The notes beneath the pieces are model-generated. The model was not told the DNA's origin and did no database searches. It saw nothing but the letters and a program-made list of their open reading frames with translations. DNA of 64,000 bases from Opitutaceae bacterium (GTDB lineage: Bacteria; Verrucomicrobiota; Verrucomicrobiia; Opitutales; Opitutaceae), in assembly GCA_015075305.1 (NCBI GenBank), contig JABTUS010000001.1, forward strand, positions 806,001 to 870,000. The letters run 5' to 3'. Shown here piece after piece: positions 16,512 to 57,718 of this stretch (position 1 is its first letter; each line of letters begins with the position of its first letter). The position numbers were made by a program, and so were the translations under genes.

Positions 16512-16686
16512 GGAAAAGTTTGAGAGGCATGATCAGACTTGCGCATCGATAAGCGCAATTGACACGCGCCCGCATGCCTCCTTCAGAAGCTTTCGATTTG
16601 AAAGCATATCTGACGAATGGATTGTATTAGATGGGCCCTCATGCCATCTTGATTTTACTGCATGGAACGGAACGAGACAATTGCAT

Positions 16687-17653: not shown

Positions 17654-17697
17654 CGTATTTGGCAAGTGCCACCTATTGCTGATGCAGGAAGGAGCTC

Positions 17698-19832: not shown

Positions 19833-19942
19833 GTGGGATAGGAATGTTGAAGCCGACCTTGGAGATTCCGACTTCGAGGAAGGCAGGGCGAGTCAATGCA
19901 AGGGTCAACTGAGGTAAGAAGTTATCGTGACCGAGAAATCGG

Positions 19943-19954
19943 TGTTACGCAACA
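19943..19954. promoter_or_regulatory. Operator candidate TGTTACGCAACA upstream of TonB receptor 1
   Basis: Exact 12-bp copy of the palindrome core at 9371-9382, in the divergent spacer between the two TonB receptor genes, 111 bp before the start of receptor 1. Confidence 0.6.
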
Positions 19955-20099
19955 ACTGAGTTAAATTACGAAGTTCCATCAGACCCGGAATGTCAATAGA
20001 ATTGGGAGCTCAAATGGGCACAAAGATTGGGCGAAAGCAGATGAAAACTTTTTTTCGGAAATCCACGAAGTAGTGGAATTCTTGCCTAGAGCTTATCGG

Positions 20100-20255: not shown

Positions 20256-23200
20256 ATGCGAGCGCTCAAACTGATCACCTGTCTGGGTGCATGCGTGGCG
20301 CTTGCCGTCACACTGCCCGCCCAGCAAACGCCGCAGCAACCGGCCGATCAAGCCATTCAACTGGAGGCCTTCACCGTGACTGGCTCCAACGTGAAACGCC
20401 TGGAATCAGAAAACGTCCTGCCTGTCACCCAGTTCACCACCGGATGAAATCGACCTGCGGGACGCCTCGCAGACATCGGACCTCCTGATGGCCCTGCCCC
20501 GTGTCACCGGACTTCCCGGCAACGAAACGGCGACACTGGGCGCCACCGCCCGCGGCGACAACGCCACCGTGTCGCTGCGCGGCATCCCTCCAGCAACACG
20601 CTGATCCTGCTCAACGGCCGGCGCCTGCCGCCCCACCCCATCAGCCAGGGTGAAGCCGGAGTGCCCACACCTCAACGAATGTGAATGTGCTCCCCAATCG
20701 CGGACTTGACCGCATCGAGGTCCTCCGCGACGGCGCATCGTCGATCTATGGCACCGACGCGGTCGCCGGTGTCATCAACACCATCACGCAACGCAACTTT
20801 GCCGGGACCGAACTCGTCCTCCGCTATGGAGAAACGGAGGACGGCGATGGACGCGAGGTGCGCGCGACGCTCACGCATGGCCTCAAGTTCCACAACGGAC
20901 GCGGACGCGCCATGGTCGTCCTTGATCTCTATGACAGGGATCCGATCTACGCGCGGGATCGCGCCTTTTCCGCAGAGGCCGATCATTCCGCACGAGCGCC
21001 AGCTCCCGGAATGTGTCCACGGACACCACCTTCAACGCCCGCTCTGCCACAAGCGAGTTCGGCAACTTCATCATGGGCACGCTCACCGACGGCGTGTTCA
21101 AGACAGGGCGCACGGCCGGCATTCCCTCGTCGCTCGCCGCAACCAGCGGGCAGTTCTACCTGGTACCGACCGCAACCGGCGTGGGTTTCCAGACTTCCAG
21201 CCCTTCCCGCGCAGGAATCACCAGCACGTATTATTGGAACAACAACACCTATCGCGTGATTCAACCGCAAAGCACGCGCGGCAATCTGTATCTGAATGGT
21301 GAATACGACCTGGGCTCAAATCTCACCGCGTTTGCCGAGTGGAGCCAGTACCAGGCGCGCTCCGTCACCATTCGCGAACCCGACGGCATCACCCAGTCCA
21401 CCGATGGCGACATCATCGTTCCCGCGACAAATCCCTTCAATCCGTTCGGCACGCGGTTCTGGAGTCCAACAGGAGCTCCAAACGCCGATGGCACGCCGCG
21501 CCTCACGGGCACGCCCGCGGCGGTGCGCATCACCAACAAGCGCCTGACCGATCTCGCGGACCGCACCGCCGAAATCAACACCTCGGTCTATCGCGGCGTG
21601 GCGGGAATTCGCGGACGGTTCTTCGACTGGACCTGGGAGGCCGCCGGCCTCTGGAGCGCCGCACGTGTGAAGGACGACGAAATGGGACCGAGCCGGAAGA
21701 GCCTGCTCAAGGATGCAATCAACCAAACCGACCCCGCACGCGCCTTCAATCCGTTCACGCGAAGTTTTGCCATCCAGAACAACACGCTCGTCGTCACGGG
21801 CCCCTACATCAATCCCGAGTCCGTTCAGAATACGTTCCGTTCGCACTTTATCCGGGAGGGCCTGACTGAACTGAGAAGCATTGACCTGCGGGCAGCCGGC
21901 AACGTCACTGAAATCTGGGCGGGCAATGTCATCGGTGCCGCGCTCGGTGCCGAATATCGTTACGAATCCTTTGCAGACACCCGACCCCCGTTCGCCGGTC
22001 TCAATCCCCCGGATTCCGGACTGGATCCGACCGCAAATGACTTCCTGGGTTTCTCGCCCAATTCCGACACGCATGGCAAACGGCAGGTCGCCGCCGCCTA
22101 CGTGGAGGGGCTTTTCCCGCTCGTCGGCAAGGGCAACCGCCTCCCGCTTGTGGAGTCCTTCGAGATTTCAGCCTCAGCCCGGTATGAAAGCTACACGGAC
22201 TTCGGCGACACAACGAAACCCAAGTACGGCTTCAGTTGGAGGCCACTCCTCCGTTCTTGTGCGCGGTTCCTACAACGAGGGCTTCCACGCGCCCAACCCG
22301 CGCAGCTTTTCACGGGCACGCTCATCCGGACCGCAACCAACTCCACCGACTCCTACCGCAGCATCGTGACGGGACAACCCACCGACGGCGCCTCGAACCG
22401 GCGCAGCATCGCGGCGGGTAATCCGGACCTCGATCCAGAGGAATCGCGTGGAAAGTCCGCAGGCATTGTCATTGATGTGCCAAAGATGCGCGGCCTTTCC
22501 GTCGGCATTGACTACTGGGAAATCCGGCAGCGCAACGTGATCGCCTCCTCCGGTTCAATCGCGGACGACACAGCGGCACTCCAAGCCGCCACGCAGGCGG
22601 CCCTTGCCGCGGGCCAGAGCATCAACCAGATCGACCTCGGTTCCGGCACTCCAGGCTACAAGGGCGATGGCGCGATCGTCCGCCTGCCCGTGACCCAGGC
22701 GGACCGCGACGCATTCGCCGCCTACAATGCCGGCCGCCCGCCCCGAGCCAGCGGGCTGTTGTCGGCGCGATCGAATACATTCGCACCACGTACTTCAATC
22801 GTTCGCAGGAATTCGTGAACGGGTTCGACTTTGACGTCACCTACCGCCTGCCCCGGATGGATGTTGGTCGTATTGTCCTGAACACCAACTGGACCTATCT
22901 CAACGACTTTCACACCTACGTGAGCAACGGCGCGCCGCGCACGGAATTGCGCTGGACCAATTCGACCAATGTGGGTGGCGCGACCCCAAAATGGCGGGGA
23001 AGCGCGACGGTCACCGAAGCGCAACAACTGGAGCGCGGGCCTGTCCGCCTACTACATCGGCAACTATTCCGACGTGGGCGCAACGACCTCCCTGGCGACC
23101 TATGAATCCCTGGGCTCCAAGCTACATCAAGCCGGTGTTCAACAACGGCGCCAACAGCTACCGGTTCATCGTTGATGACTCGATCAGCTTCAACGCCAAC

Positions 23201-23384
23201 ATCTCCTATCGATTCATGAGGAACGACTCCTGGCTGAACGACACGACAGTCCGGCTGGGAGTCGTCAATCTGACGGACGAAACACCGCCGCTGACATCGG
23301 ATTCGCGGGGATATGAGACCGGCGTCTACAATCTGATGGCCCGCGGGCGCACCCTATTCGCTCCAGATTACCAAGCGGTTCTGA
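20256..23384 (+). pseudogene. TonB-dependent outer-membrane receptor 2, frameshifted
   Basis: Start at ATG 20256 (MRALKLITCLGACVALAVTL, a signal peptide) is preferred to 20223. The mature protein begins with IQLEAFTVTGSNVKRLESEN. Plug motifs follow: NRGLDRIEVLRDGASSIYGT and DAVAGVINTITQRNF. The barrel is mostly readable in 21013-22818 and ends, after a last indel near 23356, with RTLSLQITKRF and TGA at 23382-23384. Frame breaks occur near 20440, 20600, 20680, 20990, 22240, 22745, 23010 and 23120. The type matches the 'IYGTDAVAGVIN' receptors abundant in Opitutaceae. It is divergent from receptor 1 and followed by a terminator. Confidence 0.7.
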
Positions 23385-23408
23385 CCGAAGACGCATCGCA
23401 CAAGCTTC

Positions 23409-23436
23409 AAGCCGGCTCCCCCCGGGGCCGGCTTTT
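23409..23436. terminator. Rho-independent terminator candidate
   Basis: AAGCCGGC (23409-23416) pairs with GCCGGCTT (from 23427), closing a C/G-rich loop, and is followed by TTTTC. It stands 25 bp after the end of receptor 2 and just before the convergent ggt gene, so it may serve both directions. Confidence 0.6.
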
Positions 23437-23468
23437 CATTTGGGAAGGAAAAGAGTTTCCGCCCAGCG

Positions 23469-25154
23469 TCAGTTGCCTCCGACGGCTGCATTGGTGCGCC
23501 GCGGGTCCGCATAACCCACGCGCATGCCGTCGGGTTTGATCGCGATGGCGTTGATGCCTCCAAATTGCCGGCCCGTTCCCGGCTCCTCGGGAAGATTCAC
23601 CTGCCAGCCCTCGGCCTGAAGGCCGCGCACCACAACCGGATCGAGTGACTTCTCAGCCTCAACGGCGTCTCGTTTTGATTTGTCAAAGGGGCTGTACCAA
23701 TGGATGCGTGTATCGCCTATCGCGTCCTCGATCGACCGGTGAAACACCAGGTTGTCGATCAACACCCGGAGGATTGCGGTCGGAATGCGTGACGAACCGG
23801 GTATGCCGAGGGCAAGCACCGGCTTGCCGCCGCTCAGAACGATCGTGGGCGCAATCGTGCTGCGCGGACGACGGCCGGGAGCGAGGGCATTCGGACTGTG
23901 CGCATCATTGTAGGCAAAATTGCTCATGGAGTCGTTCATCACGACACCGGCAGCGGCGACACCCGCGCCAAAATGAAGGCTCTGATCGACTGCGTCGCGC
24001 AAACGATGTTTCCATCCGCATCGGCGACGACGAAATGCGTCGTGCACGCCAGCAGCGAATCCACCTCCGAAACACCCGCCACCTTGCGTTTCCTGCCGAG
24101 CACGCGCTCGCGCAAGGCGGCAATTTCCCCGGGACTCACCATGCGGTCGAAAGCCGCCTGGGATTCGACTGTGTCACCAATTTCACGCTGCACCATCGCA
24201 TGCGCCTCCTCCAGAATCGTCCGACCGGTCGATGTTGGCCGCCGTGCGAAGCGGCGGGGTCAGTTTCTCCGCTTCGAGTCCCTTGAGAATTATCATGAAA
24301 AGCGACGCTCCCGTGGTGGGTGGAGGTCCGCCAAGTAGGTGATATCCCCTGAAATCGATGGCTATGGGTTTGGTTACGCGCGCGGCATAACTTTCCAGAT
24401 CCTCATGCGTCAAAAGCCCCCCGCCCTTTCTCGACGCTTCGACCAGCGCCGCCGCCACCGTCCCCCGGTAAAGCCATCGGCACCGTCGCGGGCGAGGTGC
24501 TCCATGGTGCGGGCAAGATCATGATTCGGAAGGCGGGAGCCGATCTGCGGGAGATCTCCATTCGGCAGAAACAGCCTCGCCAGCGTACCGTCCCCGCCGC
24601 GCAGCTTGTCCAGCCGCTCTTCGAATAGCAGCCGCGATTTCGGCAGGACGGTGAAACCCGCGTCTGCCAGTGCAATCGCAGGTGCGACCGTTTGCGCCCA
24701 AGGGAGTTTTCCCCAGCGTGAATGCGCGGTGAAGAGGCCCGCGGCAAGACCTGGAGTGCAAACCGACGACCATCCGTCGAAGCGGGATTTTTCCGGACGG
24801 CGGCGATACTTGTCGGGCACCAGCGAACGACTTGCCTGGTCCATGGCATCGACAGCGTGCGTCTCGCCTGTGCGCCCATCGAAATACAGCAGCATGAGTT
24901 TGCCCCCAAGACCTGATCCATAGGGCTCCGCGACTCCAAGCGTGGAGCGAAACGGCAACAGCCGCGTCGATCGCATTCCCACCCGCGCGGAGAATGCCGT
25001 CACCCGCTGCCGCCGCCTCCGGGTGGCCGGCCACCACCATCGTGCGGCTTGCAGAGACAGGTTTGACAAGGACCGGCACCTCGCCGCGCACAAAGACGGC
25101 GGCGATGCCGGAAAGAACGATAAGCCGGAGGGAATGGCGCGGGAGTTTCATCAT
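23469..25154 (-). pseudogene. ggt: Gamma-glutamyltransferase, frameshifted
   Basis: Periplasmic Ntn-hydrolase that removes gamma-glutamyl groups from glutathione and similar peptides. The start is at 25154 with a leader (LRLIVLSGIAAVFVRGEVPV). MVVAGHPEAAAAGDGILRAG and GNAIDAAVAVS follow, then GVAEPYGSGLGGKLMLLYFD. The autoprocessing site with the new N-terminal threonine is in ACTTHFVVADADGN, and the C-terminal SRIPTAILRVLIDNLVF is at 23469-24047. Length fits the family (about 560 residues). Frame breaks are near 25020, 24450, 24220, 24010 and 23960. It is not obviously linked to the catabolic cluster. Confidence 0.75.
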
Positions 25155-37216: not shown

Positions 37217-37342
37217 TCCCGGACCGCGTGCTTTGAACACGCCCTCCAGAAGCAAGAACCGCCAACCGGGATCAGCCGGCGAAGCGGACAGTGCAACGTG
37301 CGATCAAACGGCATTCATCCGGTCAGAACCGTCACACAACTC

Positions 37343-39958
37343 ATGACCCTTCCTTTCCTCCGCCAGCTTCAAGTGCTCCACGCATTCCTCGCAGCCGCCG
37401 TGTCCCTCGCATCGGCGCACAGCCTCCTCGCCGGATCCAGCGATCGAAAAGTGGATCTTCGCTTCGGAATTCCCACGTGGCACCAGCCTCTCGGCATCCC
37501 AGCCGACTGGCACAAGCCCATGGCGAACGAGCGTGGCGCGTTGCTCTACGACTTCGGCCCTGGCCCCTACGTGCAGGGTGCAACCGTGGTCGAAGCAACT
37601 GCCGAGGGACCCGCGTTCTCACTGGATCGGCAGACTTTCGAGGAGAGTCCCCGGCTCCCGATTCTGCGCACACGCCTGACACAGGGAAGCGATGTACTTT
37701 CAGTCACTACCCTTGCCCTCCCTCCATCCCAGCCCTCGCCATCGAACGGACGCAGCAATGGCCATGAGCGACTCGACGGCATCGCGGGAGCAATCGACTG
37801 GGCAAATCCGCCCGAGGAGGTATCCCCGCAATTCCGCAACGTAGCCTGGGGAGTCAACCGACCCATTCGTTATCGCATCCGGGTGACCGAGGGCGATTCG
37901 AAGAAGGTCATGCTCGGTTTTTGCGAAAGCTACAAACGCATCCTCAATCAGCGCATCGCGGAAATGCGTGTTGAGGGTTCACCGTCACAGATTGTCGATC
38001 TGGCTCTCAATGCCCCCACCAACCAGCCTCAGGTTTTCCTCTTCAACGCTCACGACGCCAACAATGATGGCTGGATCGACATCGCAGTGGTGGCGCCACA
38101 GGGACACGACCCCAACACGACTCTTGCCACGATCGCAGTATACGCCGCCGGCACCTCGTTGAACCGCCAGGAACTGCTGGAGGGATCCTTGTCCGCCAGC
38201 GATCGGGCGGAACTCCGGATCGCATGCGGCACCGAAATGCGCTCGCAGGATCCGCGTGTCGACCTGATCCACGCAGCCTATTCCCCCGGTTCGCGGCCTG
38301 TCGTCGCTATTCGCACGAGACGCCTTCTTCAGTTCAATGAGAACGGTCTCGTGACAAACGGAGGGAGAATTTTCCTCGACACAACACCCCACGCCACCGG
38401 GTTCACCCGCAGCGCACAGGGGTGGAATCTGGAATTTCCACAAGGCACGCGGGAAGTGCTGGTCCGCGTGTTTTCAGGAAATGCCTCGCCGGATGATGTC
38501 CGCCCTGCACCCACGAGTCTGAAGGATGCGCTGCGCATCAGCCGCGAGAGATGGTCCAAACTGAACATCCCCCATGGTCGCATCACGGTCGCCGACCCCT
38601 CGATTCAGGCGATGGTCGACGCCTCAATTCGCACGGTTTATCAGGCCCAGGAAACAGTCAATGGCCAGACGCAGTTCAATTCGAGCTTCACCCTCTATCG
38701 CGGACTCTGGGCTGGGGACGCCGTCTATATTGCCACGCTTGCCGCGCAACTCGGCGACTCAACCTCGGCACGGCAGACGTTCGACGCCCTGCTCAGCCAT
38801 CAGCGGCCCGATGGAATTATCGACGAACTTCACCCTCAGCAGATCTATCGCACGACCGCCGAGGTCATCTGGGCCATCGAGCACGACGCACAGATTTCCG
38901 GCAACTGGGACTACGCGCGCTCAAAGTGGCGTCAGATCATGCTGGGAATTCAAGGTATTCGCGCACTGCGCGATTCGACTCTGGCCCATCCCGATTCTCC
39001 TTTCGCCGGTCTCTTCCCACCGGGTTTCAGCGATGGCGGAATCCTCGACATCGGCGCCGAATACTCCTCGGTCTACTGCACCATCACCGGCCTGAAGGCG
39101 GCCGGACGAATGGCGCGGAAACTCGGCTTTGACAGCGACGCCGCATCCATTGAATCACTGGCAGAGGAGTTCCGCTCTTCCTTCGACCTCCACCGCCGGC
39201 GGGATCAGCGTCGCGACAGCCACGGCAACCTCTACCTGCCGGTGCGCGTGGGTTTCAAAGGCAACGATCCCATCCCGCAGCTCACGCAATGGGCATTCAT
39301 GGATGCCAGCATCAACGGTGGCGGCTGGCTGCCGTCGAATCACGAATTGGTGACCGGAACTTTCGCCCTGCTGGAATCGGTGGAGCAACAGGGCCTGCCG
39401 GTCAGCATGGGCTGGATGCCCGGTGGCAACTGGGCGGGCATGGGTCTCTTCTATGGCATCGAAGCCCTGATCCTGGGAAGGGATGTCAAGGCCGCGGATG
39501 TCCTCTATGCCGCCGCCAATCATGCATCACCACTCGGCACCTGGGTCGAGGAACAATCCCTTGTCGGCAAGCCCCTCAAGCTCGCCGGCGACCAGCCTCA
39601 TTGCTTCGCCGCCGCAGCGATGCCGCTGCTGGTCGGCTCCATGCTGGCCTACGAGCACAACGGGGCCATCCATCTTCTCGGAAGTGTTCCCGAGGAATGG
39701 CTTCGTGCGGAAGCAGTCAACAGCCTCAAGCAATGGAAAACCGCAGGTGGTTCCATTTCCCTCCGCTTGGCGGTGAATGAAGACGGATCGGTGATGTCTC
39801 TCCGTGTCGACCCCATCGAAAACGCCCGCCCCTCCGGATCCGTGATCCTGCACACCGCCAGCCTCACTCGCGCCGGTTTCAAGATCGCCGGTCTTGCCGC
39901 CGACGGGCTCATCTCAATTCCAGCAGGTCAGCCCTTTGAACTTTCCGCGAAGCGCTAG
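37343..39958 (+). CDS. Secreted six-hairpin glycosidase-like protein
   Basis: 871 residues. ATG at 37343 gives a clean signal peptide (LQVLHAFLAAAVSLASAHSL), so it is preferred to GTG 37298. The N-terminal half is predicted beta-rich. The C-terminal half is an alpha/alpha barrel of the six-hairpin glycosidase type. YRGLWAGDAVYIATLAAQLG, DALLSHQRPDGIIDELHPQQ, TAEVIWAIEHDAQISGNWDY and an acidic NWAGMGLFYGIEALILG segment resemble GH78/GH95/GH63-type barrels. The specific substrate cannot be assigned. The first plausible acid is the aspartate after GLWAG. It probably acts in the periplasm on oligosaccharides. Confidence 0.6.
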   Translation: MTLPFLRQLQVLHAFLAAAVSLASAHSLLAGSSDRKVDLRFGIPTWHQPLGIPADWHKPMANERGALLYDFGPGPYVQGATVVEATAEGPAFSLDRQTFEESPRLPILRTRLTQGSDVLSVTTLALPPSQPSPSNGRSNGHERLDGIAGAIDWANPPEEVSPQFRNVAWGVNRPIRYRIRVTEGDSKKVMLGFCESYKRILNQRIAEMRVEGSPSQIVDLALNAPTNQPQVFLFNAHDANNDGWIDIAVVAPQGHDPNTTLATIAVYAAGTSLNRQELLEGSLSASDRAELRIACGTEMRSQDPRVDLIHAAYSPGSRPVVAIRTRRLLQFNENGLVTNGGRIFLDTTPHATGFTRSAQGWNLEFPQGTREVLVRVFSGNASPDDVRPAPTSLKDALRISRERWSKLNIPHGRITVADPSIQAMVDASIRTVYQAQETVNGQTQFNSSFTLYRGLWAGDAVYIATLAAQLGDSTSARQTFDALLSHQRPDGIIDELHPQQIYRTTAEVIWAIEHDAQISGNWDYARSKWRQIMLGIQGIRALRDSTLAHPDSPFAGLFPPGFSDGGILDIGAEYSSVYCTITGLKAAGRMARKLGFDSDAASIESLAEEFRSSFDLHRRRDQRRDSHGNLYLPVRVGFKGNDPIPQLTQWAFMDASINGGGWLPSNHELVTGTFALLESVEQQGLPVSMGWMPGGNWAGMGLFYGIEALILGRDVKAADVLYAAANHASPLGTWVEEQSLVGKPLKLAGDQPHCFAAAAMPLLVGSMLAYEHNGAIHLLGSVPEEWLRAEAVNSLKQWKTAGGSISLRLAVNEDGSVMSLRVDPIENARPSGSVILHTASLTRAGFKIAGLAADGLISIPAGQPFELSAKR

Positions 39959-48124: not shown

Positions 48125-49660
48125 ATGATGAGCATCCGTTTCGCCGCCTTTTTTCTCTTCTCCGCAGTTCTTGCATCAGCCGCGGGCTCCCGGCCCAACA
48201 TCCTCTTCATCTTTTCCGATGACCACGGATCGCAGGCAATCAGCGCCTACGGCGAGAAGCGCCACCTGATAAACACACCGAACATCGATCGCATCGCCAG
48301 CGAAGGCATCCGCTTCGATCGCTGTCTCGTCACCAATTCACTCTGCGGGCCGAGCCGGGCCACCGTGCTGACGGGAAAATACAGCCACCTCAACGGATTT
48401 TACAACAACACCAACAGCCGGTTCGACGGCAGCCAGCCCACCTTCCCCAAGCTGCTTCGCGCGGCCGGTTATCAGACGGCGCTCTTTGGCAAATGGCATC
48501 TTGTTTCAGATCCCACGGGGTTTGACTTTTGGGAGATCCTTCCCGACCAGGGCCAGTACTACAATCCGCCGATGATCCGCAATGGGAAGAAAGTCACGCT
48601 GCCGGGCTACGTGACGGACATCATCGCCGACGAGTCGATCGCCTGGCTCAAGGGTCGGGACAAGACGAAGCCGTTTCTTCTCATGGTTCAGAACAAGGCG
48701 CCCCATGGCGAATGGGCGCCGGCGCTGCGCGATCTCGATTGGGACCACGGGCGCGTGTATCCGGAACCGGATACACGCTTTGACGCCTATGACAACGACC
48801 GCGGGCTTGCCTGGCGCGATCAGGACATGAACCTCGCAAAGACGTTCAGCGAACGCCTGGCCAAGCTGATCACCCCTCCCTACCTGAACGCGGAACAGCG
48901 CGCGGTCTGGGACGCCTATTTCGGTCCGCGCAGCGCAGCCTTCCGCAAGGCGAATCCCACCGGCCGGGATCTGGTGCGCTGGAGGTACCAGAGCTACATG
49001 CATGACTACCTGGGCACGGTGAAGGGGATCGATGACAATGTCGGGCGCCTGCTGGCCGCCTTGGAGAAGGAAGGCCTGGCCGACAACACAATCGTCGTTT
49101 ATGCGAGCGACCAGGGTTTTTTCCTCGGCGAACACGGCTGGTACGACAAACGCTGGGTGCTGGAGGAATCCGTGCGCACGCCGCTTGTGCTCCGCTGGCC
49201 CGGCACGGTCAAGCCCGGCAGCACCAATGGGGATATGGTCTCCTTGCTGGATGTCGCCCAGACATTCCTCGAAGCGGCCGGGGTGCCGGCGCCATCGGAC
49301 ATGCAGGGCCGCAGCTTTGTGCCGCTGTTGCGAGGCGAACACCCCGCAGACTGGCGCAAATCGTTCTACTATCATTTCTACGAGTTCCCGAAACCGAACC
49401 GAGTGCGACCGCATGAAGCCATCATCACTCAGCGTTACAAACTCGCCCACTACCATGGCGACGTCGACGACTGGGAACTCTACGATCTCCAGCGCAACCC
49501 TGAGGAAACCAGGAACTATTTTCATGATCCCGAGTACCGGCAGGTGATCCAAGACCTGCGGACCGAACTCGATCGCCTGCGGCTTGTTTACCACGTGCCG
49601 AAAACCGCCCCACGATCCGCGTACGGCAACGAGGCTTTCCCGGGAGAGAAGCGCAGGTAG
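48125..49660 (+). CDS. Exported sulfatase (type I, S1 family)
   Basis: 511 residues with leader MMSIRFAAFFLFSAVLASAA. NILFIFSDDHGSQAISAYGE carries the calcium-binding aspartates. The signature is SLCGPSRATVLTGKYSH (C-x-P-S-R). GKWHLVSDPTGFDFW, VYASDQGFFLGEHGWYDKRW and YDLQRNPEETRNYF are typical of choline-sulfatase/heparan-like S1 enzymes. Only 10 bp separate it from the upstream sulfatase, so they are probably one transcript acting on one sulfated glycan. Confidence 0.9.
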   Translation: MMSIRFAAFFLFSAVLASAAGSRPNILFIFSDDHGSQAISAYGEKRHLINTPNIDRIASEGIRFDRCLVTNSLCGPSRATVLTGKYSHLNGFYNNTNSRFDGSQPTFPKLLRAAGYQTALFGKWHLVSDPTGFDFWEILPDQGQYYNPPMIRNGKKVTLPGYVTDIIADESIAWLKGRDKTKPFLLMVQNKAPHGEWAPALRDLDWDHGRVYPEPDTRFDAYDNDRGLAWRDQDMNLAKTFSERLAKLITPPYLNAEQRAVWDAYFGPRSAAFRKANPTGRDLVRWRYQSYMHDYLGTVKGIDDNVGRLLAALEKEGLADNTIVVYASDQGFFLGEHGWYDKRWVLEESVRTPLVLRWPGTVKPGSTNGDMVSLLDVAQTFLEAAGVPAPSDMQGRSFVPLLRGEHPADWRKSFYYHFYEFPKPNRVRPHEAIITQRYKLAHYHGDVDDWELYDLQRNPEETRNYFHDPEYRQVIQDLRTELDRLRLVYHVPKTAPRSAYGNEAFPGEKRR

Positions 49661-49671
49661 ACCGACGATCC

Positions 49672-49696
49672 GGGCACGACGGAGCGTGCCTCTCCA
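49672..49696. repeat. Dispersed intergenic repeat, unit 3
   Basis: GGCACGACGGAGCGTGCCTC resembles the repeats at 27161-27197 and 27311-27346. It sits between the sulfatase and the sigma factor gene. Confidence 0.45.
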
Positions 49697-49834
49697 GATC
49701 GATGAGATGATTGGTCGCCGACCGCTGGTCTCTGAAACCTGATCCATATCCGGCTCCATCGATGCGCAAACTCGAAGGCATTTCATCTCGCCTGCTCCTC
49801 GGGGCTGAGGCAGAAACACGTACTGATCCTCCCT

Positions 49835-50374
49835 GTGCCACCGCAAGATCCAGAAGAGGCTGAATGGTTTGCCGCTGAACTCCGGCCGCACGAGCCAATG
49901 CTGCGCGCCTGGCTCCGATCGCATTTCCGCGCGGCTGATCAGATCGATGATGTGATCCAGGAGGCCTATCTGCGTGTTCTCCGGGCACGCGCGCAGGGGG
50001 AGGTGCGCGCGCCCAAGGCCTTTCTTTTCGTCACGGCGCGCAACCTCATGCTCATGCACCTTCGGCACTGCGAGGTCACCCGAATAGATCCTTTAACGGA
50101 ACGGGACTTCGAGGGCATCTTGGATGACAGGGCCGACGTCGCCGCCGAGGTGGCTCGCTCCCAGGAACTCGAAATGCTCACCCAAGCCATCCAATCACTC
50201 CCGACGCGCTGCCGCCAGATCCTCACGCTGCGGAAGATTTATGGGCTTTCGCAGAAGGAGGTCGCTGCGGAGCTCGGCATTTCCGAGCATACCGTCGAAG
50301 CGCAGGGCACGATCGCGCTGCGCAAACTCGGCGAGTTTTTCGCCGGCCGCGGCATCGCCCCCCCACCCCGATGA
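49835..50374 (+). CDS. ECF-type RNA polymerase sigma factor
   Basis: 179 residues from GTG 49835. Region 2 is in AADQIDDVIQEAYLRVLRAR, with FLFVTARNLMLMHLR. Region 4 is CRQILTLRKIYGLSQKEVAA, then ELGISEHTVEAQ. This matches FecI-like ECF sigmas. The stop overlaps the next ATG (ATGA at 50371). The gene order sigma, FecR, STN-type receptor marks a cell-surface signalling system in which substrate binding at the receptor releases the sigma factor. Confidence 0.88.
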   Translation: MPPQDPEEAEWFAAELRPHEPMLRAWLRSHFRAADQIDDVIQEAYLRVLRARAQGEVRAPKAFLFVTARNLMLMHLRHCEVTRIDPLTERDFEGILDDRADVAAEVARSQELEMLTQAIQSLPTRCRQILTLRKIYGLSQKEVAAELGISEHTVEAQGTIALRKLGEFFAGRGIAPPPR

Positions 50375-51402
50375 ACGACGCGCGAAAACACTCATCCACG
50401 AATGCGATCGAGGATCAGGCCGCCGCCTGGGTGCTCCGGGAGGATCGCGGTCTCTCCGCGGTGGAGCAGGACGAACTTCTGCACTGGCTCTCGCTCGATT
50501 CGCGCCACGGCGAGTCGCTTTCAAGGCAGCGCCAGAACTGGCGTCGCCTGGATCTGCTCGGCCAGTGGAAGCCCGAGCACAGTCTTCGGCCCAATCGTGA
50601 CCTGCTGGCACCGCATGAATCCATGCGAATCACGCCTACACGATTCCCTGGGAGAAACGCGATTTTCGCGCTGGCTGCCTCAGTGACAATTGTGTTCGCC
50701 GGGTTTGCGCTTTGGCTGCGTTTGAAGCCAGACGGAGCCGCTGGCAATCCTTCAACAATCGCGGCCATTGAGACGCGCTCACTGCCGGACGGCTCCCATG
50801 TTGAACTCAATCGAGGCGCGGTGCTCACCGCAATGTACACGGCAACTGAGCGAAACGTGCGGCTCGAGCACGGCGAGGCGCATTTCAGCGTCAAAAAGGA
50901 TGCAGCGCGGCCCTTCATTGTTTCCGCAGGCGGCGTGAACGTGCGTGCAATCGGGACGGCCTTCAATGTCCGCCTCGGGGGGCGGGCGGTGGAAGTCCTG
51001 GTGACCGAAGGCCGCGTGCGCGTCGATCAACGCGAAGGCCCATCCGGCGAAAGGATGGTTGTCGTCCCGGAGCTTGAGCGGGGTGAGCGCACAGTCGTCC
51101 CGCTTGAGCCTGCGGCGGCACCGCAGGTCGCCGTCGTGACGCCTGAGGAAATGGACCAGTTTCTTGCCTGGCAACCCCGCATGCTGGAATTCACATCGGC
51201 ACCACTCCGCAGCGTGGTTGCTGAATTCAACCGCCGCAACACGCCTATTCACCTGCTGGTCATGGATTCCGATCTGGCCGAGATCGAGGTGAGCGCCTCA
51301 CTGCGCTCGGACAATGTGGAGGGCTTTCTCCGGCTGCTCGAAGCGGGCTTCGGCGTGCGGGTGCAGCGGCAGGGAGAGATAATTCGCCTGAACCGACCCT
51401 GA
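50371..51402 (+). CDS. FecR-like transmembrane anti-sigma/sensor protein
   Basis: 343 residues. The N-terminal DUF4880-like part (IEDQAAAWVLREDRGLSAVE, QDELLHWLSLDSRH) is cytoplasmic. One membrane helix (IFALAASVTIVFAGFALWLR) is near residue 100. The FecR domain is AAIETRSLPDGSHVELNRGA, VRLEHGEAHFSVKKDAARPF and VRAIGTAFNVRL. The last 70 residues (LEFTSAPLRSVVAEFNRRN..EGFLRLLEAGFGVRVQ) form an STN-like fold. It translates with the sigma factor (4-bp overlap). Confidence 0.88.
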   Translation: MNDARKHSSTNAIEDQAAAWVLREDRGLSAVEQDELLHWLSLDSRHGESLSRQRQNWRRLDLLGQWKPEHSLRPNRDLLAPHESMRITPTRFPGRNAIFALAASVTIVFAGFALWLRLKPDGAAGNPSTIAAIETRSLPDGSHVELNRGAVLTAMYTATERNVRLEHGEAHFSVKKDAARPFIVSAGGVNVRAIGTAFNVRLGGRAVEVLVTEGRVRVDQREGPSGERMVVVPELERGERTVVPLEPAAAPQVAVVTPEEMDQFLAWQPRMLEFTSAPLRSVVAEFNRRNTPIHLLVMDSDLAEIEVSASLRSDNVEGFLRLLEAGFGVRVQRQGEIIRLNRP

Positions 51403-51507
51403 CGCCGCCGAATGGACAAACCAAGCACCGGGTCAACTTTCAGGAAATCGGTCAGGAAGCGTTAGCGGAAATCCGGGCAGACGGCATCTCGGGTGTTAGA
51501 CCCAGCC

Positions 51508-54500
51508 ATGAGATCCCTTCCCCTTGCCTTGCTCCATCGCGCAAGATCATTGCGCGCCGCCTTCCTCATTGCCTCGCTGACAATCTACGCAGACGCGTTT
51601 GCCGCATCCCAGGGAAAGATCACTTTTGATCTGCCGGCAGGCGAGGCAAGCCAGACACTCAAACAGTTCGCGCAGCAGGCCCAGCGGGAGATTCTGTTTC
51701 CCGTCCAGCCCGTGGGCGGTGTGCAGACCAACGACGTCCACGGGGAGTTCAGCGTAGGCGAGGCGCTCGACCGGCTGCTCAGTGGCACGGAGCTGACGGC
51801 GCTAGTGGACACCAAGACGGGTGCGATTGTCATCAAGCGCGTGTCGAGCCCAAACGCCCCAAGCCGCCCCGCTGAGCGCGAGGCGGCGCAAGGTGCGGAG
51901 ACTCGTCCATCACGGGGTGCCGCCGGCACGAACGAGTTGCGCGTCGTAAAACTCGAAAAACTCGAGGTCACAGGCACACGACTGCATGGACTCCTTGCCG
52001 GAGCGACGGCGCAGCCCGTGCTGTCCCTGAACAGCCGCGACATTGACCGGACCGGCGCGCAGTCACTCGGAGACCTCTTCCGCTATATTCCCCAAGTGTC
52101 CAGTTTCACGCTCGGTCAGTCGGTGACCCGCCCCAGCGGCTTTGCTCAAGCGGTTGGCGGCCCTCCGATTCCGAACTACAACGCCTTGAACAATGGTGCA
52201 TCCGGTCGCGTAACCGCCACATTGCGAGGTACTGCCGGTGACGGCACACTGCTGCTTGTCGACGGCGTACGTGTGCCAAAGAACAACCAGGCCAGCGGCG
52301 GGGATGGATACGACCTGAATGGCATTCCCCTGGCAGCCATCGACCGCGTCGAGGTTCTCCTCGATGGCGCCAGTTCCATCTATGGTGCGGACGCCATCGG
52401 CGGGGTCATCAACATCATCCTGAAGAAGAACTATCGGGGAAGCGAGCTGCGCCTGGGTTATGAGAACACCTTCGACCGCGACGCCGGTGTGCGCACGGCA
52501 AGCATCACCCACGGTTTCGGCAGCGGCAGGCTGCGCGGCCTCGCAACCCTCTCCTACGAGGACTCCAACAGCATGGCGTTGCGCGATCGTGCCCTCACAG
52601 CGAGTTCTGACCGAAGGCCTTTCGGAGGGCAGGATCTGCGCGGAACCATTGTTGGTGGAGCCGGACGGGTGTCGCGCACCGGGACCGTTCCACTGCCGGG
52701 CTTGACCGCCACATCTGCCGCTGTGCCCTCCGGAACTTCCGGCACAGGTTTGACGGTGGCAAACTATGCCAGCTCCGGCCCCATACCCGAGCCCGGTGAT
52801 CTGGCGCAGTTTCAAGACTACAGCTCCGAGTACACCCGCAAGAGCGCCGTGATCAAACTGAGTTATGACTTCGCGAAATACCTGGAAGCCTACACCCATG
52901 TGCGCGCGGGACAGAACCGCAATGAACTCGCCCCCCAGCCCATTCAGGCGAGCCTTACCATTCCCGCTGGCTACCCCGGAAATCCGTTTGGCATACCGAT
53001 CCTACTTTCGAAGTACCTCTACGACATCGCGCCCGTGCGGACATCAATCAATGATTCGTTCCTGGCGACACTGGGCGTGCGAGGTCAGCTTCCGCGGGAC
53101 TGGCACTATGATGCCTCCATCAGCTTTGTCCGTGGGCACACCAGAGCTGATGCATCCGCCGGACCGTCAATCACAGCCGCGTTGTTCAATGCGGCTGTTG
53201 CCGCGGGACAGACTCCGAATCTCTTCTACGACAGCACGCGCATTCCGAATCCGAACGCCCCCGGAGTGATCGAATCCCTCACGACCCCGGCGCGCGACGA
53301 GGAGGTCACGGAGGATTGGATTTACTCGGCCCAGCTCGATGGCCCGGTCTTCACATTGCCCGCCGGCAAGATCGTCGTCGCCGGAGGTGTTGAATTTCGT
53401 GAGGAATACACGGACTTCCCCCTGCGCTCCGCCACCGACAATGTTTCGGCGCGAGCTTCAAACCAGGAGGTGAGGGCCTTCTTCAGTGAGGTAAACGTGC
53501 CTGTTTTTGCTCCAGCACAGAAGCTGCCTCTCCTCGACCAACTGAACCTCTCGGGATCGTTCCGGCGCGAAGCGTACACTTCCGGCGGAAGCTCCTCGAA
53601 TCCCCGGGGGGGCGTGGCCTTTCGTCCCATTAAATGGCTCCTGCTGCGAGGCAGCTACGGCACGGGCTTCAAGGTGCCAACCCTGCTGCAGACCAACCAG
53701 CCGGTTCTCTCCAGTACATTTCGCTTTTCAGGCAGCGTTGATCCCCTCCGTGGCAACGAGCCTCAAACCTCCTTCATAACCCGCACCACGGGAGGCAATC
53801 CCAACCTTCGTCCGGAGAAGTCCGAAAACACCAGCTTCGGTTTCGTCCTGGAGGCGCCGATGGTCAAGGGGTTGTCCTTCTCCGTTGACTGGTTCGACAA
53901 CAAGTTCATCGACCGCATCACGCTACCCGCATTTGAACAAATGCTCCAGCACTTCCCGGAGCGCGTGACCCGCGGCCCCAACCGACCCGGAGACCAGGCA
54001 GGCTGGCCCGGCCCGGTGACGGCCATAGACTACCGCAATGTAAACCTCGCTTACAGCGAGGTGAGCGGCTGTGACGTGAGTGCGAAGTACGACCGCACAA
54101 CTCCGCTGGGAGAGGTGCTCGTCAATCTCACCGTCACAAAATATGCGAAGAATGTTTTCGTCGCGGCGCCCAACGCTCCTCCTTCCTCCAATGTGAACAC
54201 GGACAGCCTGCCAGTTCAGGTGAGCGGCGCAGCGTTCCTGAACCGTGGCGCCTGGGGAACCGGCGCACTCGCCACCTATCGCGCTGCCAGTCGCTTCCTG
54301 CCCACCGTCACCGCCACGCCCTCCGCGATTCGCTGGGACTGGCAGTTCAGCTACGACTTCGACAAATCGGCCTGGCTGAAGACGCACGGGGCCGGATGGC
54401 TCGGGAGAGCTCTCAAAGGCGTCAAGGCCAGCCTGACTGTCTTCAACGTATTCAACACGGAGCCGCCGCTCGACTACCTCTATCTGCCGGACAACACCAC

Positions 54501-54552
54501 GCTCGACGCGCGCCTGCGTCGCTACGGCCTCTCACTGCGCAAACAATTCTGA
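51508..54552 (+). CDS. TonB-dependent receptor with N-terminal STN signalling domain
   Basis: 1,014 residues from ATG 51508. After a leader (LRAAFLIASLTIYADAFA) comes a secretin/TonB STN domain (ITFDLPAGEASQTLKQFAQQ, FSVGEALDRLLSGTEL). The plug has SRDIDRTGAQSLGDLFRYIP, LLLVDGVRVPKNNQ and VEVLLDGASSIYGADAIGG. The barrel ends ARLRRYGLSLRKQF with a terminal phenylalanine. The STN domain talks to the FecR protein encoded just upstream. The gene is complete, in contrast with the two receptors at 17.7-23.4 kb. The transported ligand is unknown. Confidence 0.9.
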   Translation: MRSLPLALLHRARSLRAAFLIASLTIYADAFAASQGKITFDLPAGEASQTLKQFAQQAQREILFPVQPVGGVQTNDVHGEFSVGEALDRLLSGTELTALVDTKTGAIVIKRVSSPNAPSRPAEREAAQGAETRPSRGAAGTNELRVVKLEKLEVTGTRLHGLLAGATAQPVLSLNSRDIDRTGAQSLGDLFRYIPQVSSFTLGQSVTRPSGFAQAVGGPPIPNYNALNNGASGRVTATLRGTAGDGTLLLVDGVRVPKNNQASGGDGYDLNGIPLAAIDRVEVLLDGASSIYGADAIGGVINIILKKNYRGSELRLGYENTFDRDAGVRTASITHGFGSGRLRGLATLSYEDSNSMALRDRALTASSDRRPFGGQDLRGTIVGGAGRVSRTGTVPLPGLTATSAAVPSGTSGTGLTVANYASSGPIPEPGDLAQFQDYSSEYTRKSAVIKLSYDFAKYLEAYTHVRAGQNRNELAPQPIQASLTIPAGYPGNPFGIPILLSKYLYDIAPVRTSINDSFLATLGVRGQLPRDWHYDASISFVRGHTRADASAGPSITAALFNAAVAAGQTPNLFYDSTRIPNPNAPGVIESLTTPARDEEVTEDWIYSAQLDGPVFTLPAGKIVVAGGVEFREEYTDFPLRSATDNVSARASNQEVRAFFSEVNVPVFAPAQKLPLLDQLNLSGSFRREAYTSGGSSSNPRGGVAFRPIKWLLLRGSYGTGFKVPTLLQTNQPVLSSTFRFSGSVDPLRGNEPQTSFITRTTGGNPNLRPEKSENTSFGFVLEAPMVKGLSFSVDWFDNKFIDRITLPAFEQMLQHFPERVTRGPNRPGDQAGWPGPVTAIDYRNVNLAYSEVSGCDVSAKYDRTTPLGEVLVNLTVTKYAKNVFVAAPNAPPSSNVNTDSLPVQVSGAAFLNRGAWGTGALATYRAASRFLPTVTATPSAIRWDWQFSYDFDKSAWLKTHGAGWLGRALKGVKASLTVFNVFNTEPPLDYLYLPDNTTLDARLRRYGLSLRKQF

Positions 54553-54562
54553 ATACAACGCC

Positions 54563-55798
54563 ATGAAATCCCTTGCCTGCTGTCTGCTCTGTCTGACCTT
54601 CGCATGCGTCAGTGCGGCCGTTGCCGCTGATGCCGCCGGAGAGCTTACTGCTCTCAAGGCACTGGTGTCCGAAAAACCCCCTGCCGGTTTTTCCAGCAAT
54701 TCGGCCCGGTTCCGCTGGAATCTCGAACGTGGCAACGCCATCGCAGCCGCCGCCGAAAACTTCATGACCAATCATCCCACCGACCCCCGTCGCTGGGAGG
54801 CTGCGGTCATCCTGCTCTCGCGGACCCGTGCATTCGTCAAGGCCATTGACGAGGCCAAGCTCGACCAGACCAGGCCTGGAACCGTGGTCATGGGTTCCAT
54901 CACCTACGACCATGAAGCCCAGGCGGACTGGCGCCGGCGTATGGAGGAGCTGGACACCCAGTGTGCTGCAGCCACTGACATGACAGCAGAAGTCCGCAAG
55001 GAATACGAACTGGGCGCAGTCATACGGCACATGACCTCAGCCGGAATGATCGGCGCGGGCGCCAGAGTGAGCCCCGGAAAGCCTGCGACCAAGGTGGACC
55101 CGGCCGAATCTGCCGCGCTTCTCGCAAAGCTGCACGCTGAACTCGACCATGTCATTGCCGCCTATCCGGATGACCCGCTCACGACCTCGGCTTTCGACCG
55201 CTTCGTCAACCTGTACCGACGCTCGGGCGCCTCGATCGAAAGGGTCAACGCGCTGCTGGAATCCTATGTCGACGCACCCAGCGAGGGCATCCGCAACATC
55301 GTCGAAGCAGGCCTGACTTTGCAGAAGGCTCAGATGCAGCCGCTCGACTGGAAATTCACCGCAGCCGACGGCCGCCAAGTCGATCTAACCCAGCTCCGCG
55401 GCAAGGTTGTACTGATCGATTTCTGGGCCACCTGGTGCAAACCCTGCATTGCCGAAATCCCGAACATCGTCGCCACCTATCAGAAGTTTCATGAGCGCGG
55501 ATTTGAGGTTGTTGGAATTTCCCTCGAGCAGGCCGGAGTGACGCCTGAGACTGGCGCTGATGCGGCCCAGATGAAGCTGGCGGCGGCGCGCCGCAAGCTT
55601 CTGGATTTCACGGCGAAGCACGGCATGCCGTGGCCCCAGTATTTTGACGGCAGTGGATGGAAAAATCCATACACTGCAAAATACGGCATTCGTGGAATCC
55701 CCCGAATGTTCCTGCTCGATCGTGAAGGCAAGGTTGTGACCATGGACGCCCGGGGACCGAAGCTCGAAACCGAGCTCAAGCGACTGTTGAACCGCTGA
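54563..55798 (+). CDS. Exported TlpA-like thioredoxin-fold protein 1
   Basis: 411 residues, leader MKSLACCLLCLTFACVSAAV. A long helical N-terminal region of about 260 residues precedes a TlpA/AhpC-type domain: KFTAADGRQVDLTQLRGKVV, then IDFWATWCKPCIAEIPNIVA with the CxxC pair, and YGIRGIPRMFLLDREGKVV with the cis-proline. It starts 11 bp after the receptor stop. Such proteins follow SusC-like receptors in many Verrucomicrobiota and Bacteroidota loci, but their role there is not established. Confidence 0.85.
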   Translation: MKSLACCLLCLTFACVSAAVAADAAGELTALKALVSEKPPAGFSSNSARFRWNLERGNAIAAAAENFMTNHPTDPRRWEAAVILLSRTRAFVKAIDEAKLDQTRPGTVVMGSITYDHEAQADWRRRMEELDTQCAAATDMTAEVRKEYELGAVIRHMTSAGMIGAGARVSPGKPATKVDPAESAALLAKLHAELDHVIAAYPDDPLTTSAFDRFVNLYRRSGASIERVNALLESYVDAPSEGIRNIVEAGLTLQKAQMQPLDWKFTAADGRQVDLTQLRGKVVLIDFWATWCKPCIAEIPNIVATYQKFHERGFEVVGISLEQAGVTPETGADAAQMKLAAARRKLLDFTAKHGMPWPQYFDGSGWKNPYTAKYGIRGIPRMFLLDREGKVVTMDARGPKLETELKRLLNR

Positions 55799-55803
55799 CC
55801 GCC

Positions 55804-56982
55804 GTGCACGCTCTACGCATTCTGGCCGCGGCAGCCATGCTCCTTTCCGCCAACCTCCGCGCTGAGACGGAGGCCGATCGCGACTTTGCAGCCTACAACG
55901 CCAGCAAACGCATCATGACTCCACCGGAGTACAAGGACATGACTGCGGGTGAGCGCGCCCTGTGGCGCGACAGGGAGATGGTTCGACTCGCAAAAGCGGG
56001 CCTCGCTCTTTTCGAAAAGCACCCCGACGACCCTCGGCGATGGGACTTGGTTGTATACCTTGGCTACCTCAAGCCGGGGTTCATCAAGTCGGTCGGGCCG
56101 GACTACGACACCATGAAGTCCAAGGCGTTTGTCTACGACGATGCGGCGAAGGCGGCGTGGGCAGCGAAGGAAACGGAACTTTGGAATGCGATGCGGGCAG
56201 CCTCGGATCGCACCCCGCTGGCGGACGAGGAACTCGCTTGGGGATCCTTCGCAACGGATTTCCGAGCCCAGGCGGCACGTGCAAAAAGGGGAGAAGCGGT
56301 GGATTGGGTGCCTTTTCGGAGGAGACTGGCCGCGCATGTCGAAAAATTTGTGAGCATGAATGAAACACTCACACGACGCGCTCGCGATTTTCTGAGTGCG
56401 CTGGCTGCCTTCGCTCCAGATGCCGCGGCGATTGAGTGGCGCAATCTGGCTGACCACTCGCCCAATGCCGCACTGCGCGCACTCGCCGCTGAGGAATCAA
56501 GCAGGATGGCCGCACTTGTCAGGCCGATTGAAATCAAGTTCACCGCGATTGACGGCCAGGTGGTGGATTTGAACGCGCTGCGCGGCAAGGTCGTCCTGGT
56601 CGACTTCTGGGCCACTTGGTGTGGGCCGTGCAAGGCAGAGATCCCCAACATCAAGGGAGTCTATGCCGAATACCACGACAAGGGCTTCGAGATCATCGGC
56701 ATCTCCCTGGAAAACGCATCGCTCAAACCCGAGGACACTGCTGAGCAAGCTGCGGCCAAACACGAGAAGGCCAGAAAGATCCTCGCTGATTTCACCGCGA
56801 AAGAGGGCATGTCCTGGCCACAATACTATGACGGCATGTACTGGAAAAATGCCATCTCCACACGTTTCAACATCACCGGCATTCCCGCCATGTTCCTCAT
56901 CAATCAAGAGGGAAGGGTCGTGTCCACAAATGCGCGTGGTCCGTCCCTCGAGGCTCAGGTGAAGCAATTGCTCAAGCTCTAG
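55804..56982 (+). CDS. Exported TlpA-like thioredoxin-fold protein 2 (paralog of the preceding gene)
   Basis: 392 residues from GTG 55804, 6 bp after the previous gene. Leader LRILAAAAMLLSANLRAETE. The C-terminal domain has KFTAIDGQVVDLNALRGKVV, LVDFWATWCGPCKAEIPNIK and FNITGIPAMFLINQEGRVV, near identical in layout to protein 1 but with WCGPC instead of WCKPC. The N-terminal helices are weakly similar. It is a tandem duplicate within the same transcript. Confidence 0.85.
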   Translation: MHALRILAAAAMLLSANLRAETEADRDFAAYNASKRIMTPPEYKDMTAGERALWRDREMVRLAKAGLALFEKHPDDPRRWDLVVYLGYLKPGFIKSVGPDYDTMKSKAFVYDDAAKAAWAAKETELWNAMRAASDRTPLADEELAWGSFATDFRAQAARAKRGEAVDWVPFRRRLAAHVEKFVSMNETLTRRARDFLSALAAFAPDAAAIEWRNLADHSPNAALRALAAEESSRMAALVRPIEIKFTAIDGQVVDLNALRGKVVLVDFWATWCGPCKAEIPNIKGVYAEYHDKGFEIIGISLENASLKPEDTAEQAAAKHEKARKILADFTAKEGMSWPQYYDGMYWKNAISTRFNITGIPAMFLINQEGRVVSTNARGPSLEAQVKQLLKL

Positions 56983-57178
56983 CACACACCAATCGGCTGA
57001 TTGGCTGCCTGCATTTCATCCCTCCACCCCCCGGACGGCTCGGAGTGAATTCCCCCCGGCGCTGTCTTCAACCGCGTCATCAGCAGCTCCTTCCCGCTTG
57101 TTGGTTGCAGAAAATAATTTCATACGATCGGCATTGTCATATTGTCAGATGACGTCGGTGGGTTACCGTGGACCGTGA
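56983..57178. other. Intergenic spacer before tatA
   Basis: AT-richer than the flanks around 57110-57140 (AATTTCATACGATCGGCATT), probably the tatA promoter. No other feature seen. Confidence 0.4.
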
Positions 57179-57718
57179 ATGGCGTCTATATCTGAGATGA
57201 CATCGTCCTGCTTTGCGTTGCTCGGAGATATTGGTGGGGCTGAATTGCTCCTGATCTTCGTCTTGGTGCTGGTGCTGTTTGGCGGAAAACGGCTCCCCGA
57301 GTTTGCCCGCGGCCTTGGGAAATCGATCAGGGAATTCAAGAAGGCAACAAGCAGTGTTGAGGAGGAATTGCGGCGGGTGATGGAGGAACCGCCACCTCCT
57401 CCGCGCAAGAAGGATCCGGCGTCGCTTCCCGCCTCATCCACACCCGCACTGCCGTCTCACGCCAGTGCGTCGGCTGGGGTGATCACCGATGAACACGCCT
57501 ATGATGACGATCCCTACTCCGCCGATCTGCATCATCCGGGTCCCGACGCCCCGAGCGTATCAGTGAATGACGACGCGAGCACCGTGCCACTCACGCCAGC
57601 AGAACCGGTTGCACCATCCCACTCCGAAACGGCATCCACCGATCCAGCAAAGCCCAAGGATGCCGCCAGCGCCTCGCCTGGCTCCGAGGCCACCGGGGGC
57701 GACTCAAAGGTAGCCTGA
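57179..57718 (+). CDS. tatA: Sec-independent translocase protein TatA/TatB-like, with long acidic/Pro-rich tail
   Basis: 179 residues. One membrane helix ([15 protein letters not shown]) followed by the amphipathic helix [20 protein letters not shown] and an FGG hinge are the TatA/B hallmarks. Beyond residue 60 a charged helix leads to PPPPPRKKD and then a 100-residue Ser/Ala/Pro/Asp-rich tail, longer than typical TatA. A TatB role is possible. No tatC is visible next to it. The stop overlaps the convergent nnr gene by 15 bp. Confidence 0.8.

Follow-up and report, generated by a model that had tools for sequence, protein, structure and literature searches.

A TonB-dependent receptor family of Opitutaceae linked to TlpA-like thiol-disulfide proteins, and a candidate signalling-controlled uptake operon

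A 64,000-nucleotide stretch of an Opitutaceae bacterium (GenBank assembly GCA_015075305.1, contig JABTUS010000001.1), hereafter the window, comprises positions 806001-870000 of contig C1 in a 4.87 Mb draft genome. It carries a run of five genes for an extracytoplasmic function (ECF) sigma factor, a FecR-type anti-sigma regulator, a TonB-dependent receptor and two TlpA-like proteins, TlpA1 and TlpA2. In this study, we found that, seen from the receptor side, coupling to TlpA-fold proteins is almost the rule in this lineage. We give about even chances to the view that the run is a signalling-controlled TonB uptake operon with dedicated periplasmic disulfide reductases, which would be supplied by DsbD and would reduce the imported ligand. 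Below, G, C and L numbers are our handles for genomes, contigs and loci.

The pairing was assessed with the receptor as the sole query against 150 genomes from the same family; about five candidate receptors were scored per genome, and TlpA domains were marked by purpose-built profiles. Seventy rows scored 242 bits or more against the window receptor and 67 were entered, the omitted ones being G112:C373 (region not fetched) and two rows representing additional pieces of receptors counted elsewhere. Of the 67, two with TlpA nearby spanned the borders of fetched stretches and were set aside, which left 65 receptors, including two partial hits. A TlpA-fold protein was encoded within 6 kb downstream and on the same strand for 60 of these 65 receptors, all chosen by receptor similarity alone. 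The remaining five comprised two with TlpA on the other strand, two without TlpA (G031:C41 and G042:C88) and one at a contig end. The initial annotation had proposed, as a test of itself, that orthologous receptors might regularly lack the TlpA pair; for TlpA as such this was not the case, given these 60 and the two with TlpA on the other strand. When eight rows below 242 bits were added, seven of them first fetched via the TlpA search, the distribution was 66 downstream, three on the other strand, three without TlpA and one truncated (n = 73). In the genome that contains the window, TlpA neighbours were found for the window receptor and for each of its four top-scoring paralogs (C1:546k, C2:279k, C11:148k and C9:123k), and the other 18 receptor places among the matches listed had no TlpA hit within 9 kb. 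In a phylum-wide sample, the receptor was detected at E <= 1e-50 in 11 of 288 genomes, ten in the window's family and one in the same order. Outside the phylum, a metagenome-assembled genome labelled Gammaproteobacteria contained FecR, ECF, receptor and three-domain TlpA genes (L041). One 49-kb contig (G031:C68, L152-L154) held at least four family receptors and many TlpA genes.

All five open reading frames (ORFs) of the run were confirmed on the plus strand with the expected domains, including the 4-bp overlap between the first two. The ECF sigma factor (49835..50374, 179 aa, GTG start) matched Sigma70_r2 (7.5e-12) and Sigma70_r4_2 (2.3e-14). The FecR-type regulator (50371..51402, 343 aa), described from its Pfam FecR match (1.6e-18), hydrophobicity and Cys count, had a single strongly hydrophobic segment near residue 98; the FecR_C model reached only E 0.067. 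The receptor (51493..54552, 1019 aa) matched Plug (3.2e-18) and the TonB barrel (4.5e-25). These five models passed their Pfam cut-offs, whereas the STN match of the receptor (E 7.2e-5, residues 74-111) was sub-threshold at 22.9 bits against a cut-off of 28.4. The genes for TlpA1 (54563..55798) and TlpA2 (55804..56982) follow, with gaps of 10 bp between receptor and TlpA1 and 5 bp between TlpA1 and TlpA2. The earlier description of the run as almost gapless applies best to receptor-TlpA1-TlpA2, given the FecR-receptor gap, which is 90 bp from the annotated GTG (51493) or 105 bp from an alternative ATG (51508) and contains a promoter-like motif. Similarly, a complete cell-surface signalling unit was supported by domain content, with STN under its cut-off, while signalling itself is a prediction. 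A TatA gene just downstream (57179) was considered as part of the unit and dropped, TlpA1 and TlpA2 having no twin-arginine signal by eye.

Regulation appeared to follow the architecture of the receptor. The STN region was scored as reached when the alignment extended into residues 1-60 of the window receptor, which is not a domain hit, and 59 of the 73 rows were counted after omission of five with the upstream side cut off, two partial hits and seven low-scoring rows. FecR was encoded upstream of 35 of the 37 receptors reaching the STN region versus two of 22 others (Fisher p 1.7e-11, with related species not being independent). This association indirectly favours an STN domain at the N terminus of the window receptor. 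With the seven low-scoring rows restored, the values were 38 of 41 and two of 25, and G006:C20 contradicted the rule. Nine of the 22 receptors not reaching the STN region faced a LuxR-type gene (two confirmed as GerE by Pfam, the others by clustering), and the choice between FecR and a divergent LuxR-type regulator changed only once on the tree over the 61 receptors having either. The sequence GGAA-N14-CGTC occurred in 13 of 53 FecR-receptor gaps, compared with a mean of 0.26 (maximum 2) in 100 shuffles and none antisense; this motif was chosen from the same gaps, so the real control is the spacing scan, in which the other GGAA-CGTC spacings from 8 to 20 gave 0-4 occurrences. In the window, GGAA-N14-CATC lies at 51467..51488 on the plus strand. 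The motif suggests a putative ECF-type promoter ahead of receptor-TlpA1-TlpA2, and if it is a promoter, ATG 51508 is the likelier receptor start. A scan of 49600-57200 for sigma-70 promoters and terminators gave nothing above shuffles and no plus-strand promoter-like site. A second motif around GTTACGG was also enriched (GTTACG in 11 of 53 gaps versus 2.1 shuffled), perhaps reflecting another ECF specificity.

TlpA1 and TlpA2 are each about 400 residues long, and their Redoxin/AhpC-TSA Pfam matches are confined to the C-terminal part. The different active sites reported earlier, WCKPC in TlpA1 and WCGPC in TlpA2, were both found, and a large N-terminal helical domain in front of the redox domain was predicted for TlpA1. 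An AlphaFold2 model of TlpA1 built on 28 aligned sequences (mean pLDDT 91.7) contained about ten helices followed by a thioredoxin fold, after a signal-peptide-like start; the N-terminal domain of about 235 residues (approximately residues 23-258) was nearly all-helical and, modelled alone, had a pLDDT of 92.0. By alignment, TlpA2 has a TlpA1-like layout. The TlpA1 redox domain superposed on ResA 2h1b_C (Z 17.7, rmsd 2.0, 134 aligned), and the CxxC was invariant in the 28 aligned relatives. A conserved Pro near the active site is presumably the cis-Pro. Thus, having the thioredoxin fold, the CxxC and this Pro, the C-terminal domains of both proteins can be placed in the ResA/TlpA-like thioredoxin superfamily, with reductase activity predicted. 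NCBIfam cut-offs were not reached by either protein (best ResA subfamily 75.3 and 80.7 bits versus 170; TlpA 59.5 versus 230), and SCO1/SenC scores were under the Pfam cut-off. Fold searches with the whole TlpA1 model were dominated by the thioredoxin fold, and hence the helical domain was also searched alone. Foldseek then gave no significant match (best E 0.031, BamD), and VIA gave middling scores to TPR and 14-3-3 proteins, the best of which (Z 10.5, rmsd 4.4, 171 aligned, a TPR-CHAT chain) was within the chance range of helical proteins. A Pfam TPR match was absent from this domain. We call the modelled domain a TPR-like helical array as a descriptive label, with no kinship to TPR families implied.

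The type of TlpA partner varied considerably. Partners included one helical-domain TlpA, a single TlpA domain without the helical part, and proteins with 2, 3, 4, 5 or 7 TlpA domains. Among 71 distinct helical-domain TlpA proteins in the loci, 48 had WCGPC and two WCKPC. In five-domain proteins of about 1000 residues (L140:8746-11817; L118, L122, L206, L210, L213 and others), the CxxC was present in domains 1, 3 and 5 and absent from domains 2 and 4 in 10 of 10 cases, an alternation that we take to recall the active and inactive domains of protein disulfide isomerase (PDI). The seven-domain proteins (about 1300 residues) shared one common pattern (3 of 3). On a quick tree of 87 receptors, built without bootstrap, with label changes compared with 500 shuffles, the multi-domain partner label required three changes versus 13.8 shuffled (0 of 500 as low), and the helical TlpA label 10 versus 24.2. 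A conserved five-gene order, as the initial annotation had envisaged it, was rejected, as the nearest loci differ: G055:C80 has receptor-TlpA1 with ECF-FecR downstream at a contig end, G105:C68 has ECF-FecR-receptor-two-domain TlpA-TlpA1, and G123:C48 has a three-domain TlpA as partner. Nor did the TlpA pair hold as a unit. At the nearest loci the TlpA1 relative stands by itself or beside another kind of partner, and relatives of TlpA1 with 56-60% identity occur at two of them; the closest relatives of TlpA2 (51-55%) lie elsewhere, in units with other receptors. Tandem helical-TlpA genes nevertheless recur, with two at L144 (the second 51% identical to TlpA2) and three at L149.

A possible electron supply was suggested by DsbD. 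The own genome has a single PF02683 (DsbD) match at C2:271.9-272.5 kb, in a neighbourhood that also contains a family receptor and genes for a cysteine-synthase-like protein, a five-domain TlpA and a LuxR-type protein. Among the matches listed, 18 of 48 genomes had a DsbD start no more than 10 kb away from a family receptor, where genome size and receptor number would predict 0.56, although the 18 genomes fall in nine genera and are not independent. DsbD linkage is thus frequent among receptor-bearing genomes, though not universal. Multi-TlpA, cysteine synthase and DsbD genes also occurred together in G007, G055 and G123 (L275, L279 and L276, respectively); the L275 and L279 stretches had no receptor (L279 is a 4.6-kb contig), and at L276 the receptor was about 5 kb away.

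The proposed mechanism starts from what was established computationally, namely gene order, domain content, receptor-side pairing, partner clustering, the promoter-like motif and DsbD linkage. From these we infer how the signal flows, what the helical domain does, that the ligand and no other client is reduced, and what the ligand may be. Binding of the ligand to the STN receptor would signal through FecR to the ECF sigma factor, which would transcribe receptor-TlpA1-TlpA2 from the promoter in the FecR-receptor gap. The receptor would deliver the ligand into the periplasm, where the TlpA proteins might bind it, with the TPR-like helical domain as the gripping part, and use their CxxC to reduce one of its disulfides. 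The TlpA proteins would then be re-reduced by DsbD, whose gene lies at a sibling locus of the window's receptor family. Our guess is that the ligand consists of disulfide-bonded peptide or protein fragments.

The client of the TlpA proteins is probably elsewhere than the receptor, judging from cysteine content. The matched span had no Cys in 58 of 86 receptors and one in 19, so that 77 of 86 had 0-1; the window receptor has one and the window FecR none, and 39 of 59 FecR proteins had none. Given these counts, receptor and FecR disulfides are improbable targets, and the ligand is the candidate to consider next. Receptor maturation, one of the two roles first suggested for the TlpA pair, is accordingly not supported. 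More generally, the TlpA proteins might act on the receptor or FecR, by disulfide reduction or isomerisation in outer-membrane biogenesis or as a redox switch on signalling. Gene order, which implies co-expression of TlpA with the receptor, and the clustering of partner types on the receptor tree would both fit, but given the scarcity of Cys we regard such a role as very unlikely. A little more credible, though still improbable, is that the TlpA proteins are general envelope redox housekeeping, co-expressed by chance with a stress or starvation receptor. Helical-TlpA relatives are often found without a receptor, and the DsbD linkage would equally suit a general supply; on the other hand, receptors of this family had TlpA neighbours almost without exception, the other listed receptors of the own genome showed no such pairing, and multi-domain partners clustered on the receptor tree.

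Two further explanations concern the nature of the ligand. FecIR receptors classically serve iron chelates, as is well known and as an excerpt of PMC9249621 also describes. The ligand could accordingly be a metal or haem chelate from which, once it has been imported, the TlpA proteins would release the metal in the manner of Sco/TlpA-like reductants or metal chaperones. Metal uptake would fit weak NCBIfam matches (far under cut-offs) to receptors for haem and B12, the CxxC-less domains of multi-TlpA proteins, and the presence of a ChaN-type haem protein and a PepSY_TM-like protein, one each, in the set of 173 neighbour representatives. No such family was listed with at least two of the 173 representatives, however, and the SCO1/SenC scores argue against it, leaving this explanation unlikely yet worth bearing in mind. 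The unit might also belong to a sulfated-glycan utilisation locus, as two sulfatases and a PF10091 (glycoamylase-like) protein are encoded directly upstream on the same strand, and a sulfatase relative lies beside the unit at L190. No sulfatase match in the fetched loci exceeded 33% (L190), the PF10091 protein had no homolog there at 1e-10, and Sulfatase was not listed with at least two neighbour representatives in either of the two sets scanned. The upstream sulfatases, once suggested as the source of the ligand, therefore found no backing, and we assign this possibility only a slight probability. A ligand needing thiol/disulfide handling, as originally proposed, stays the best reading because the receptor family is near-always paired with TlpA-fold proteins, the ligand being on this account a conjecture.

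Several observations weigh against ligand reduction by dedicated TlpA proteins. The pairing is one-sided: a family receptor was found at only nine of 20 helical-TlpA loci detected with TlpA1 (L009-L025, L064, L067 and L081), contig ends limiting some, and L127, L131, L136 and L147 likewise had none. The neighbours of such receptor-less genes included an M16 peptidase at L127 (L147 by clustering) and a VWA/BatA-like gene at L136, and at L131 the gene was an FKBP fusion. Single-TlpA partners without the helical domain were scattered on the receptor tree (10 changes versus 13.8 shuffled). The motif was absent from 40 of the 53 FecR-receptor gaps, and the window copy has one mismatch. When 48 genera were sampled through DsbD, each by one genome, a receptor lay in the flank in only seven of 48, one of them weak, several flanks being cut by contig ends. 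CysK was downgraded as a sign of a sulfur ligand, since it adjoins DsbD without receptor or TlpA at L249. M16 neighbours were few, with L127 and L147 coming from one genus.

Compared with FecI-FecR-FecA, the unit is alike in its ECF sigma factor, its FecR with one membrane segment, its STN-like receptor and the ECF-type motif before the receptor. In the Fec system, a binding protein and an ABC transporter come after the receptor, whereas thiol-disulfide proteins do so in the window, and a LuxR-type gene is often found opposite related receptors that lack the STN region. The TlpA proteins resemble ResA/TlpA oxidoreductases in a C-terminal domain that superposes on ResA and in the invariant CxxC; they differ in the TPR-like N-terminal domain, the linkage to a receptor and relatives with 2-7 TlpA domains. 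Bacteroidota SusC/SusD loci (L073, L079) offer a further parallel. In the Chitinophaga locus L079 (L073 in part), genes for a Plug protein, SusD, TlpA, an S41 peptidase and TlpA follow one another, and the two TlpA-type proteins have WCKPC and then WCGPC as in the window; in contrast, no SusD-like protein was among the genes around the window receptor (ECF, FecR, TlpA1, TlpA2, two sulfatases, PF10091 protein and TatA), the second TlpA of L079 has DUF4369, and an S41 peptidase interrupts that run. The DsbD proteins have the DsbD_N, DsbD_TM and thioredoxin domains of the known reductive pathway and lie near multi-TlpA genes; what sets them apart here is their frequent proximity to TonB-dependent receptors.

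Accounts of TonB-dependent uptake usually combine a receptor with a binding protein, a hydrolase or SusD, and we know of no reductive step in described TonB-dependent import. Known parts, such as FecIR signalling and ResA-like proteins, are here joined in a combination that we did not find described in the open PMC literature. A more tentative generalisation, which we consider possible without holding it probable, is a 'reductive uptake' in which receptors of one class, which in the genomes searched is nearly confined to the window's family, cannot work without dedicated DsbD-fed periplasmic disulfide reductases, either helical-domain TlpA or PDI-like multi-TlpA proteins in which active and inactive domains alternate. 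With a receptor family near-always tied to thiol-disulfide proteins, and often to an electron supplier close by, outer-membrane import would gain a step of chemical reduction, and the same reading would give a role to a large set of uncharacterised TlpA proteins. The portions seen of PMC5615132, PMC9249621 and PMC3422733 make no mention of receptor-TlpA pairing.

The genes around the units were compared by clustering 248 neighbours into 176 representatives, of which 173 were scanned with Pfam in sets of 87 and 86; the best 25 of 132 and of 119 families were listed. HEAT_2 had three members and no other listed family more than two. Recurrent clusters, named from one representative each, were a small LuxR-type gene (11 loci), DsbD (11), CysK (8), an aldo/keto-reductase-like gene (6) and M16 (3), followed by a beta-eliminating-lyase-like cluster (four genes, three loci) and Cys/Met-metabolism and sulfite/nitrite-reductase-like clusters (two loci each). 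The sulfur-metabolism hints among them are too few to weigh. M16 peptidases adjoin L153, L207 and L226 and the receptor-less helical-TlpA loci L127/L147 (one per cluster scanned), and together with the neighbours at L079 they provide a thin indication in favour of peptides as ligand. The own genome has about four M16 genes.

Some additional features were observed. At C8:220550-223428 of the own genome, an M16 peptidase match lies about 2 kb from a weak receptor hit, with no TlpA hit on contig C8. A 576-aa FKBP isomerase-TPR-TlpA fusion (L131:8386-10116) is encoded a few kb from genes matching 57.7-60.7 kb of the window. An 886-aa ORF at window 37298-39958 (plus strand) had no Pfam match at 1e-3, and none of the fetched loci yielded a homolog of it at 1e-10. 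No ORF of 200 aa was present at 17.7-20.6 kb, and the block at 16001-20000 had a GC content of 0.505, compared with 0.56-0.65 in the remaining 4-kb blocks. Finally, a TonB-receptor-like gene at window 20256-23539 (plus strand) is split over the overlapping frames 20654-21259, 20935-22818, 22512-23105 and 22835-23539, and represents either a decayed receptor or assembly frameshifts.

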